Source of the DNA: Corallococcus coralloides DSM 2259
GTDB lineage: Bacteria; Myxococcota; Myxococcia; Myxococcales; Myxococcaceae
NCBI RefSeq assembly: GCF_000255295.1
Contig: NC_017030.1
Span: 806,001 to 870,000 of the forward strand
DNA: 64,000 nucleotides
Direction: 5' to 3'
Below the pieces are notes generated by a model. It was not told where the DNA came from. It was given only the letters and a program-made list of their open reading frames with translations, and made no database searches. This document shows, in pieces, positions 26,433 to 56,557 of the stretch. A program made the position numbers and the translations under genes. Numbering within the stretch: position 1 is the first letter of the stretch; each line of letters opens with the position of its first letter.

Positions 26433-26459
26433 GAACCTGTCCGACTGTCGGACAGGTTC
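26433..26459. repeat. Solitary copy of the 53-kb palindromic repeat
   Basis: GAACCTGTCCGAC and its exact reverse complement flank one central T, giving a 13-bp perfect stem. Apart from the central base it is the same sequence as the perfect copies in the array at 53,424-54,343. It begins 24 nt after the EAD1-trypsin stop, where it might serve as a terminator. Confidence 0.85.
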
Positions 26460-52306: not shown

Positions 52307-53287
52307 ATGAGTGGCCTGGCGAACCACGCATCTTTTCTTCGAGCCTTGCACGAGGCCCCGCGGGTGCTCACCGAGGGTTCCGTGGTCGAGCGCCTGCGTC
52401 GCCACCCCGCGGGACTGTTGGATCCGCACGTGGCCAACGCGGGCCTCCTCTTCAATCCAGAGGGACGCGAGGCGCTCGCCGGCATCTACCGCGATTACCG
52501 TGACATCGGCCTGCGCCACGGCCTGCCCACGCTCCTCCTCACGCCTACCTGGCGCGCGAACGCGGAACGGCTCGCACGAGCGGGGCTCGCCGGCCGCGAC
52601 GTTTTCGGTGAGGCGGTGGGGTTGTTGGCAGGCCTGCGCGATGAGGTCGGCGGCCGGGGGGAGGGCGTGTTCATCGGAGGGCTTGTCGGGTGTCGCGGGG
52701 ATGCCTACCGGCCCGAGGAAGCGCTCCCGCGCGAGGAGGCCGCGGCCTTCCACGCGCCGCACGTGGAGGCGCTCGCGCGAGCCGGGGTGGACTTCCTCGT
52801 GGCCCAGGCGCTGCCGGCCCTCTCGGAGGCCGAAGGCCTCGCCCTGGCGATGGCGGGCACGAGGGCGCCGTTCCTGCTGAGCTTCATCCTCCGTCCCACC
52901 GGGACGCTGCTCGACGGAACCCCGCTGGCCGAAGCCGTGGCGCGCATCGACGCCCTGCCCGGCGCGCGCCCGGCCGCGTACATGGTGAATTGCGTCCACC
53001 CCTCCATCTTCCGCGAGGGCCTGTCGCGCCAGCTGGCCGCCTCACCCGCCCTCGGCGCGCGGGTGGTGGGCCTGCAGGCCAATACCTCCCGCCTCTCGCC
53101 CGAGGAACTCGAAGGGCGCGCGGAGCTCGACAGTGAGACCCCGGACGCTTTCGCGAGGGAGATGGCGCGCGTCCACGCGGAGTGCGGCACGCGCCTGCTC
53201 GGAGGGTGTTGCGGCACCGACGAACGGCACATCGCCGCGCTCGCCAGCGCCCTGACAGAAGGAGCGCCGGGCGAGCGGCGCCCGTGA
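52307..53287 (+). CDS. Homocysteine S-methyltransferase family protein
   Basis: 326 residues. The three zinc ligands are visible: Cys in VNCVHP and the pair in GGCCGTDERHI. The family transfers a methyl group from S-methylmethionine, SAM or betaine to homocysteine (or a thiol analogue); no methyl donor can be chosen here. The N-terminus (LANHASFLRALHEAPRVLTEGSVVERLRR) is typical. GGGAG lies upstream of the ATG at 52307. Third gene of the operon, 44 nt after the SDR. The palindrome array begins 137 nt past its stop. Confidence 0.88.
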   Translation: MSGLANHASFLRALHEAPRVLTEGSVVERLRRHPAGLLDPHVANAGLLFNPEGREALAGIYRDYRDIGLRHGLPTLLLTPTWRANAERLARAGLAGRDVFGEAVGLLAGLRDEVGGRGEGVFIGGLVGCRGDAYRPEEALPREEAAAFHAPHVEALARAGVDFLVAQALPALSEAEGLALAMAGTRAPFLLSFILRPTGTLLDGTPLAEAVARIDALPGARPAAYMVNCVHPSIFREGLSRQLAASPALGARVVGLQANTSRLSPEELEGRAELDSETPDAFAREMARVHAECGTRLLGGCCGTDERHIAALASALTEGAPGERRP

Positions 53288-53423
53288 CGACAAGATCGCC
53301 GTGAACATGCAGGTGGCGAGGGTCCACTGCATCCGTGAGACAGGTCCCAGGTCCTCGGACCTGGAGTCTCCATGAGAAGGTGAGAACTCCCGCCGGGCCA
53401 CCCTGGCGGCGGCGACCTCCAGA

Positions 53424-54343
53424 AACCTGTCGGACAGTCGGACAGGTTCCAGAGGACCGTAGCCGGGCCACCCCTTCAGCCGAGCGGCTGGAACCTGTCG
53501 GACAATCGGACAAGTTCTGGAGGACCGCCGCCGAGGGCTCGCACCCATCCAGGGAGCGGATACCAGTCTGACCGCCGGACAAGTTTCGGGGAATCGCGGC
53601 CGGGGCTGCCGCCCTATCCAGGCGTCAGAAACCTGTCGGACAGTCGGACAGGCTTGGACTGAAAGGCCGTGCCCGGGCCCCCGCTCAGGCCGCGCGGCGG
53701 AAACCTGTCCGACAGTCGGACAGGTTTGGGAGGACAGTGGTCGGAGCCTCCGCTCCATCCAGGCGGCGGGAGCTTGTCGGTCAGTCGGACAGGTTTTGGA
53801 GAACCGCGGCCGGAGAACCTCCTCCCCATGCGGGCGGAAGAACGTGTCCGACAGTCGGACAGGTTTCAAGGAACCACGGTCGAGGGCCTCGACTCCATCC
53901 ATCCAGGGGGCGGAAACCTGTCCGACAGTCGGACAAGTTGGGGAGGACAATGACCGGAGACCTCTGCTCCATCGAGCAGCGGAAACCTGTCGGACAGTCG
54001 GACAGGTTTTGGAGAACCGTGACCGGAGCCCCGCCTCAACTGAGCAGCGGAAACCTGTCGGACAGTCGGACAGGTTCTGGAGAACCGTTGCCGAGGGCCC
54101 GCCTCGGCTGCGCGGCGAAAAGCTGTCGGACAGTCGGACAGGTTTTGGAGAACCGTGACCGGAGCCCCGCCTCAACTGAGCAGCGGAAACCTGTCGGACA
54201 GTCGGACAGGTTCTGGAGAACCGTTGCCGAGGGCGCCGCTCCAGCGGGACGGCGGAAACCTGTCGGACAGGTTTGGGAGGACCGTGGCCGGAGCGCCTCC
54301 GACCCATCCGGGCGGATGAACTTGTCCGACAGTCGGACAGGTT
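53424..54343. repeat. Array of 14 palindromes at about 68-74 nt spacing
   Basis: Fourteen copies of a 25-nt element start at 53424, 53492, 53561, 53630, 53702, 53771, 53841, 53915, 53984, 54052, 54120, 54188, 54257 and 54319. The perfect form is half-site AACCTGTCCGAC, one base, and its reverse complement; most copies have one mismatch (G for C at position 9). The copy at 53561 has about six mismatches, and the one at 54257 lacks 8 nt. Spacers of 43-49 nt share a pattern (TGGAGAACCG, then GCCGGAG-type) but diverge, so the whole is a degenerate tandem array rather than a CRISPR. No gene was accepted in 53,288-54,391. Each unit would fold to a 12-bp hairpin in RNA. Confidence 0.9.
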
Positions 54344-54391: not shown

Positions 54392-56557
54392 TCAGGCCGG
54401 TCGGACCTGCACCGGTGTCCCGCTGAACGCGGCGTTGCCGCTGACGACGTCCAGTGCTTGATCATCCGTGAGGTCGTTGATGCTGGCGCCGGCATGCGCG
54501 CTGGCGACCTGCTGGCGGATGCCTGGGCGCTGGTGGCCGTAACCGTGCGGCAGGCTGACCACGCCGGGCATCACGTCGGCGGTGACGGCGACGGGCACGG
54601 TGACTTCTCCCACGCGCGAGCGGATGGTGGCGTTGGCTCCATCCGCGAGTCCTATGCGTGAGGCATCGTCCGGGTGGACCATGAGCGTGCAGCGGGGACG
54701 GCCCTTCACGAGCCCCGGCACGTTGTGCATCCACGAGTTGTTGTCGCGCAGGTGCCGCCGGCCAATCAGCAGCAGTTCGCCTTCGCGAGGTGCCGCGTCA
54801 TCAGGGAACGCGGCACGAAGCCGGGCCACGTCCGCGACGAGCAACTCCGGCGCCAGTTGGATGCGCTTGGAGCGGTTGCGAAGCCGGCCGGGCAGGCTGG
54901 GCTTCATCGGGCCCAAATCGATTCCATGCGGCGCGGCACGAAGCTTCGCGAGCGACAGGCCGTGCTTCTTGAGCGGATGGAAGCGCGAGCCATAGGGCCC
55001 CATGCGAAGGCCCAGGTCGAGGATGCGCTCCGGTCCCATGCGCTTGAGGGCCTGGTACTTGAGCACCGCGCGAACGCTCCGTCCCTTGCGCAGCGTCTTC
55101 AGCCGGTGCTGGAGCTCCAGGAGGATCTCCCAGTCCTGCCGTGAGTCCGGACCGGCCGGGAACACCGGCGGCGAATACTTCGCCGTGTTGCGCACCGCGA
55201 GCACATGGAAGACGAGGTCGTAGTGTCCTCGCTCCAGCAGGGACGCGGGCGGCAGGATGTAGTGCGCGTGGCGAGTGGTCTCGTTGAGATACGGATCCAC
55301 GCTCACCATGAAGTCGAGCTGCTCCAGCGCGGTGTCCAGCTGCGTGCCATTGGGCGTGGACAGCACGGGATTGCCAGCCAGGGTGATGAGCGCGCGGATG
55401 CGGCCCTCGCCCGGGGTGAGGATCTCCTCCGCGAGCGCGGCGACAGGAAGCTCACCAGAAGACTCCGGCAGGCCCCGCACCCGGCTCTTCCAGCGGCCAT
55501 GGCTGCCAGGACTGACGCCGAACGCGCGAGGCCCGCCAATGAGGTCGAAGGCCGGCAGGGTGAAGAGAGCACCGCCCTCTCGGTCCAGGTTTCCGGTGAC
55601 GATGTTGAGGACATTGATGAGCCATTGGCAGAGCGAGCCGAACGGCTGCGTGGACACACCGACGCGCCCGTAGCAGACGGCTCCGTCCGCAGCGAGGAAG
55701 TCCCGGGCGATGCCTCGAAGCACGTCCGGTGCGATGCCCGTGTGAGGCGCCGTGCGCTCCGGAGGGAAGTCGCGGACGAGTGGCAGCACGGTGTCCAGCC
55801 CGTCCACGAACGCCGCGAGCCGGCCCATGCGGTGCGCGTTCCCCTCCAGCACGACATGCAGCAGGGAGAAGAGGGCGAGCGCATCGGTGCCGGGCCGGAC
55901 GAAGACGTGCTGGTCGGCGATGCCCGCCGTCTCCGTGCGGCGCGGATCGATGACGACGACCTTGCCGCCACGCTCCTGGATGGCACGCAGCCGGGCGCGC
56001 ACGTCCGGCGTCGTCATCAGGCTGCCATTGGACGCGAGCGGGTTCGCGCCCAGCATGAGCATGTACCGTGTGCGGTCGATGTCCGGGATGGGCACCAGCA
56101 GCTGATGCCCGAACATGAGGTGGGCCGCGAGCTGATGGGGAAGCTGGTCGACGGAGGTGGCGGAGAACCGGTTGCGCGTGCGCAGCGCGCGAAGGAGCTG
56201 GGGGCCGAACATCATCGCGCCCAGGTTGTGGACGTTGGGGTTGCCCAGGTACGCGCCCACGGCGTTCGGCCCGTGCTCCTTCTGGATGGAATGGAGCCGA
56301 TGGCTGATGTCGCGGAATGCGTCCTCCCAGGACACACGCTCCCAGCCGGAGGCGGTGCGCTTCATGGGGTGGCGGAGCCGGTCCGGGTCCTCGTGCAGGT
56401 CACGGAGCGCCACGGCCTTGGGACAGATGTGGCCCCGGCTGAATGGATCCTCCGAATCGCCCTTGATGGACGTGATGCGTCCGTCCGCCACTTCGATGCG
56501 CACGCCGCACATGGCTTCACAGAGATTGCAGGTGCGGAAATGGACGGAAGCGCTCAT
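54392..56557 (-). CDS. Molybdopterin-dependent oxidoreductase (bis-MGD type)
   Basis: 721 residues. The [4Fe-4S] site near the N-terminus is Cys10, Cys13, Cys17 and Cys45 (TCNLCEAMC and ICPKAV). Further Moco-binding patterns follow (GAYLGNPNVHNLGAM, LMLGANPLASNG, VIDPRRTETAGIAD, SVDPYLNETTRHAHYILPP) and the C-terminal dinucleotide-binding domain (LMVHPDDASRIGLADGANATI). It is a DMSO-reductase-superfamily enzyme such as a formate dehydrogenase-like or thiosulfate/other reductase; there are no electron-transfer subunits adjacent, so the reaction is open. Start at 56557 has no clear ribosome site. Confidence 0.9.
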   Translation of the reverse strand: MSASVHFRTCNLCEAMCGVRIEVADGRITSIKGDSEDPFSRGHICPKAVALRDLHEDPDRLRHPMKRTASGWERVSWEDAFRDISHRLHSIQKEHGPNAVGAYLGNPNVHNLGAMMFGPQLLRALRTRNRFSATSVDQLPHQLAAHLMFGHQLLVPIPDIDRTRYMLMLGANPLASNGSLMTTPDVRARLRAIQERGGKVVVIDPRRTETAGIADQHVFVRPGTDALALFSLLHVVLEGNAHRMGRLAAFVDGLDTVLPLVRDFPPERTAPHTGIAPDVLRGIARDFLAADGAVCYGRVGVSTQPFGSLCQWLINVLNIVTGNLDREGGALFTLPAFDLIGGPRAFGVSPGSHGRWKSRVRGLPESSGELPVAALAEEILTPGEGRIRALITLAGNPVLSTPNGTQLDTALEQLDFMVSVDPYLNETTRHAHYILPPASLLERGHYDLVFHVLAVRNTAKYSPPVFPAGPDSRQDWEILLELQHRLKTLRKGRSVRAVLKYQALKRMGPERILDLGLRMGPYGSRFHPLKKHGLSLAKLRAAPHGIDLGPMKPSLPGRLRNRSKRIQLAPELLVADVARLRAAFPDDAAPREGELLLIGRRHLRDNNSWMHNVPGLVKGRPRCTLMVHPDDASRIGLADGANATIRSRVGEVTVPVAVTADVMPGVVSLPHGYGHQRPGIRQQVASAHAGASINDLTDDQALDVVSGNAAFSGTPVQVRPA

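Follow-up and report, generated by a model that had tools for sequence, protein, structure and literature searches.

In the 64,000-nucleotide window of Corallococcus coralloides DSM 2259 that we analysed (NC_017030.1, positions 806,001 to 870,000), two convergent genes, one ending on the + strand at 53287 and the other on the - strand at 54392, enclose a gap that holds an array of short palindromes at 53424-54343. The units were read directly from the sequence, and 12/14 also match the 19-mer CTGTCSGACAGTCGGACAG with <=2 mismatches. The features are listed below; palindromes without a remark were identified by both sequence reading and the 19-mer match.

52346..53287, + strand: upstream flanking gene, homocysteine S-methyltransferase-like, with its stop before the array (gene call and ORF; orthologs located)
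53344..53366, + strand: short inverted repeat CCAGGTCC/GGACCTGG just 5' of the leader (read directly; conserved in G027 and G029)
53372..53391, + strand: leader block ATGAGAAGGTGAGAACTCCC, the 5' end of the element (common to 69 non-redundant elements)
53424..53448, + strand: palindrome 1
53492..53516, + strand: palindrome 2 (2 mismatches)
53561..53585, + strand: palindrome 3, degenerate (read directly; its position fits the period)
53630..53654, + strand: palindrome 4
53702..53726, + strand: palindrome 5
53771..53795, + strand: palindrome 6 (2 mismatches)
53841..53865, + strand: palindrome 7
53915..53939, + strand: palindrome 8
53984..54008, + strand: palindrome 9
54052..54076, + strand: palindrome 10
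54120..54144, + strand: palindrome 11
54188..54212, + strand: palindrome 12
54257..54273, + strand: palindrome 13, shortened, with a single GTCGGAC instead of two (read directly)
54319..54343, + strand: palindrome 14
54392..56503, - strand: downstream convergent gene, molybdopterin oxidoreductase-like (gene call and ORF)
26437..26455, - strand: solitary palindrome of this family in another part of the window (19-mer match; the orthologous place is empty in G027 and G028)

Sequence, 19-mer matches and gene calls thus agree with the initial annotation, which had described 14 palindromes between convergent genes. All units share one orientation; 12 are good, one is degenerate and one is shortened. 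A chance origin is excluded, because the window contains 24 strand matches to the 19-mer (<=3 mismatches allowed) against 0.07 expected from shuffles. The half-site given in that annotation, AACCTGTCCGAC, is present, but it is exact in a minority of units only: the sixth base of the 19-mer is G, not C, in 8/12 good units, which are therefore not strictly palindromic.

The start-to-start spacing proved regular but not constant, as had been described, at 63-74 nt (TRF period 68, 12.2 copies), with no clear peak at 10.5 when helical phasing was examined. The spacers are homologous to one another yet different, again as described, and one part of the array was duplicated recently (53976-54105 and 54112-54241 are 95% identical). 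Regular spacing and a leader might recall a CRISPR-like array or a coding repeat, both of which the initial annotation had dismissed. We agree and consider this reading to have a negligible probability, as the spacers are related and were duplicated along with the repeats, the repeats are degenerate, the period varies and is no multiple of three, and no viral contig carries the palindrome.

A dispersed repeat family of Corallococcus

Approximately 270 palindrome sites (<=2 mismatches) were counted in the single-contig genome of 10.08 Mb (10,080,619 bases), for which a reversed-pattern control gave 0. The exact 19-mer occurs in 16/16 Corallococcus genomes, at 4 to 147 copies each, and in only 3/80 other genomes of the family; the 15-mer core GTCCGACNGTCGGAC is found 158 times here, 4-158 times across Corallococcus, 0-19 times in genus g3 and almost nowhere else. 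Named database matches were likewise nearly all Corallococcus. An Rfam search returned nothing near threshold, the literature covered contained no mention of the palindrome or of REPs in myxobacteria, and the half-site beyond the palindromes, considered as an uptake-type signal, showed a slight excess only.

The palindrome has the form GTCSGAC-N-GTCSGAC with outer TKGT/ACMA-like bases, and its consensus flank is AAAC...GTTT. In 69 non-redundant elements, a leader GGATGAGAAGGTGAGAACCC lies 53-59 nt 5' of the first palindrome core. This leader is conserved in sequence and shows no covariation, for which reason a structured leader RNA was rejected. A right flank, GTTTTGGA..CCG, is weakly shared and may correspond to a fixed 3' block such as boxC. 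In genus g3 (20 elements in three genomes), nested inverted repeats located directly 3' of genes enclose the palindrome, which shows the symmetric alternatives TGG/CCA and TTG/CAA.

Using a home-made codon-score gene finder for the gene calls, we placed 112/122 classified palindrome clusters in intergenic DNA and 10 inside gene calls. Convergent gaps hold 34 of the 112 intergenic clusters (30%), whereas they make up 163 of 825 gaps (20%) and 13% of intergenic bases. Between tandem genes, 40/49 clusters lie nearer to the upstream stop (median 67 versus 152 nt).

At the orthologous place of the window array in four sister species, we found 4 palindromes in G027, 3 in G029, 5 in G019 and 8 in G028, while synteny at this place is lost in G021. 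Elsewhere, a 4-unit array of this genome has no counterpart in four sisters, and one further place holds 3/1/1/0/0 units between species. At one insertion, of two palindromes at G000:C1:924921-925223 (L067), the flanks overlap by 19-27 nt, a possible target duplication; it lies between overlapping genes, and the 19-27 nt of their overlap are duplicated so that both genes remain whole. Other empty/filled pairs were not clean in this respect. The initial annotation had regarded absence from related strains, or abundant and random occurrence across the genome, as the mark of an ordinary dispersed repeat without a local role. The outcome is mixed: the array is kept in sister strains, and its units are abundant genome-wide, yet not randomly placed. 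The genus-wide, mostly extragenic repeat family supports its suggestion of a REP-like cluster.

Among known repeats, the element resembles the BOX element of S. pneumoniae (boxA-boxB(n)-boxC; PMC3049150) in its 5' block, its tandem units, whose number varies between strains, its intergenic position and its stem-loop potential; the combination of a fixed 5' block and a variable unit number, typical of BOX, is found here. It differs from BOX in three respects: a strict palindrome forms part of the unit, the element has a link to a cognate family of DNA-binding proteins, and no matching IS ends were identified; we claim no sequence relation between the two. Similarly, REP/BIME elements (PMC2817692, PMC3733652) are high-copy extragenic palindromes that occur singly or clustered and frequently follow the 3' ends of genes. 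However, the GTAG or CGTC tag that defines REPs at the foot of the hairpin (PMC3733652) is absent here, where the flank is AAAC...GTTT instead. Clusters also appear mostly direct rather than alternating as in BIMEs, with 186 neighbouring pairs in the same and 24 in the opposite orientation, a weak count because orientation was read from one central base.

The main rival to the interpretation developed below remains a selfish hairpin repeat of the REP/BOX/MITE type that plays no protein-binding role and whose link to a gene family would merely have been inherited when an ancestral gene was duplicated together with its upstream copy. Dispersal, extragenic position, presence or absence between species, the BOX-like leader and unit number, the possible target duplication and the nested inverted repeats of genus g3 all favour it; these nested outer repeats also exceed what a simple operator needs and count against a binding site. 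On the other side, the search for a REP-associated transposase proposed in the initial annotation came out negative, as PF01797 had 0 matches to a Y1/RAYT transposase in this genome while control genomes were positive. Taking also the evidence of the following section into account, we consider the selfish repeat unlikely, although a serious competitor.

A FadR-like gene family with the palindrome upstream

A link to a gene family was first met while we were seeking empty sites, when a palindrome flank with matches at many places turned out to be the beginning of a GntR-like gene. The palindrome also accompanied two more gene copies that had been fetched for other reasons. The protein scored above the Pfam cut-off for GntR (2.6e-12), profile and fold searches gave FadR/NanR/PdhR types as the best PDB matches, and Foldseek placed FadR among the top matches (TM about 0.5). 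The structure model is all-helical after residue 80, with a mean pLDDT of 80.5. As modelled, the family is a GntR wHTH joined to a helical C-terminal domain, the arrangement of a FadR-like GntR protein.

This genome encodes 12 paralogs and one fragment, and in all 13 of these family members the palindrome stands 104-140 nt before the start codon. Overall it precedes 48/53 non-redundant genes, and the association holds in single-copy genomes. Conversely, 22/120 loci fetched by the palindrome alone contain a FadR-like gene, where we estimate that approximately one would be expected. Across 16 Corallococcus genomes, gene number and palindrome number are correlated (Spearman 0.90, Pearson 0.94, shared ancestry uncorrected), and gene/palindrome presence/absence over 96 genomes is 21/2/6/67. 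Among the matches listed for this genome, we read about 1/8 of the palindromes as lying near a FadR-like gene, with the rest dispersed. The paralogs have upstream DNA in common, as the selfish repeat would predict. Against that reading, an intact palindrome is retained ahead of the gene both in Corallococcus and in genus g3, where it lies 183-274 nt upstream at ~50% protein identity and its base changes are symmetric. The palindrome before FadR-like genes would probably serve autoregulation.

Several other features of the family were recorded. The genes share a promoter-like block TGTCAGACCCCTGTGGTTGGATGG ~60-35 nt before the start (L392-L403), and many have an in-frame palindrome near their 3' end, at ~+968 to +1295, giving NLSDCRTG-like peptides (L393-L403). 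The gene family is present without the palindrome in G037, G039, G042 and G080, with 29 copies in G037 and 16 in G039 (L435-L454), which speaks against the palindrome as the site of these proteins. The TGTCAGACCCCTGTGGTTGGATGG block is recognisable in the G037 and G039 genes too; no shared alternative palindrome was found upstream of these genes, and two of those in G039 carry a different palindrome, CCGAACCTGTCTACTTGTCAGACAGGTTCGG, at +783.

For regulators of the FadR subfamily, a core GTM-N0-1-KAC, usually with 3 nt between GT and AC, and boxes TKGT/ACMA have been reported, as has a preference of proteins with Arg at HTH position 28 for G/C at K of TKGT (PMC4494728). GTCSGAC, which occurs twice per palindrome, and the alleles TGGT and TTGT fit this motif. 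Having read the published rule beforehand, we compared residues and sites in 69 genes. The residue aligned with FadR Arg35 is Arg in 17/17 genes with TGGT on both sides and another residue in 52/52 genes without TGGT, so that 69/69 genes agree. Both types co-occur as paralogs within G016 and within G021. These gene counts overstate the evidence, because paralogs were copied with their upstream DNA. On the tree there are three residue changes and three site changes, always coupled, and with only 2-3 independent residue-site pairs a tree-corrected test cannot reach significance. The match rests on only about three independent changes, in the direction that the published FadR rule predicts, and this co-change is not what a selfish repeat would lead one to expect.

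The only TGGT palindrome of this genome stands before its one Arg-type gene, and sampled sister genomes with non-Arg genes only have zero TGGT palindromes. Two genomes do not fit neatly and count against the binding reading: G002 has 19 dispersed TGGT sites, but the only gene found there has Gln and a TTGT site, and G006 has 12 palindrome sites and no FadR-like gene that we could find (L322-L337, L476).

Proposed binding cluster, hairpin and possible roles of the array

The two outer palindrome pairs covary (382 paired versus 333 permuted, 0/3000), which in a DNA palindrome is compatible with hairpin formation as well as with binding of a dimer. The commonest core variant, C4 to G (102/568), breaks a hairpin pair and keeps each GTCSGAC, and its compensated form was seen twice. 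Because this change disrupts pairing yet spares GTCSGAC, it favours a dimer binding site over a hairpin, selfish or otherwise, although the argument is suggestive only, as mutation bias and array duplication could inflate the G count.

An RNA-level hairpin, acting as a bidirectional terminator or an mRNA 3' stabiliser, would suit the preference of the sites for convergent gaps and for positions directly after stop codons, the folding of single elements to ~ -50 kcal/mol (z about -4.2 to -4.5) and the symmetry of base changes in both outer pairs of the stem. However, the T run is short (3-4 bases) and belongs to the consensus stem, the stem-breaking G variant accounts for 8/12 of the window units and the gene association would be left unexplained. 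The outer hairpin was also rejected as a conserved RNA in Corallococcus, where pairing between matched flanks does not exceed that between permuted flanks. We therefore regard an RNA role as improbable, and the hairpin RNA reservoir that the initial annotation had entertained finds no backing in the core variant or in the leader and outer flanks, which lack covariation in Corallococcus.

Its other suggestion, a protein-binding array, fared better, and three lines of evidence allow us to propose a cognate DNA-binding protein family. We hold with moderate confidence that the array is a tandemly multiplied Corallococcus extragenic palindrome, that the palindrome is a putative site of FadR-like GntR proteins and that the array represents a cluster of binding sites multiplied locally. 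FadR-like proteins would bind GTCSGAC-N-GTCSGAC, each of their genes being autoregulated through the palindrome before its start, and the window array would form a high-occupancy cluster where the 3' ends of two convergent genes meet. It counts against this interpretation that the sites are not ordinary operators, as many occupy gaps between convergent genes, where no promoter is expected. If binding at convergent 3' ends has any effect, a bidirectional transcription roadblock together with titration, in which the bound array would serve as a reservoir for FadR-like proteins, appears most likely.

The proposed system shares with FadR-subfamily regulators (PMC4494728) a GntR wHTH, a helical C-terminal part, the core GTM-N-KAC and an Arg35-equivalent matching K. 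It departs from them in the number of paralogs (12 per genome), in the pair of cores that lie side by side in each site and in its >100 dispersed sites, many in promoter-free gaps. The NanR operator with several repeat half-sites (PMC8012715) offers a parallel for GntR-family dimers on closely spaced repeats, although it is a single operator in one promoter, unlike the genome-wide repeat described here.

More tentatively, and with somewhat less than even confidence, we suggest that a transcription factor family and its binding site were amplified together in one genus, giving about a dozen paralogs and >100 dispersed sites, some of them in tandem arrays between genes, with co-evolving specificity. 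If true, this would parallel the REP-RAYT pair with a transcription factor as the protein partner, or amount to a chromosome-binding system specific to the genus. Most dispersed palindromes of bacteria either are paired with a RAYT transposase or lack a known protein partner; a multiplied transcription factor as the likely partner would add another route by which repeats originate and persist. The matched protein-site pairs would provide a natural series to test the FadR recognition code, and the system would offer a defined candidate for the role of arrays between convergent genes in myxobacteria.
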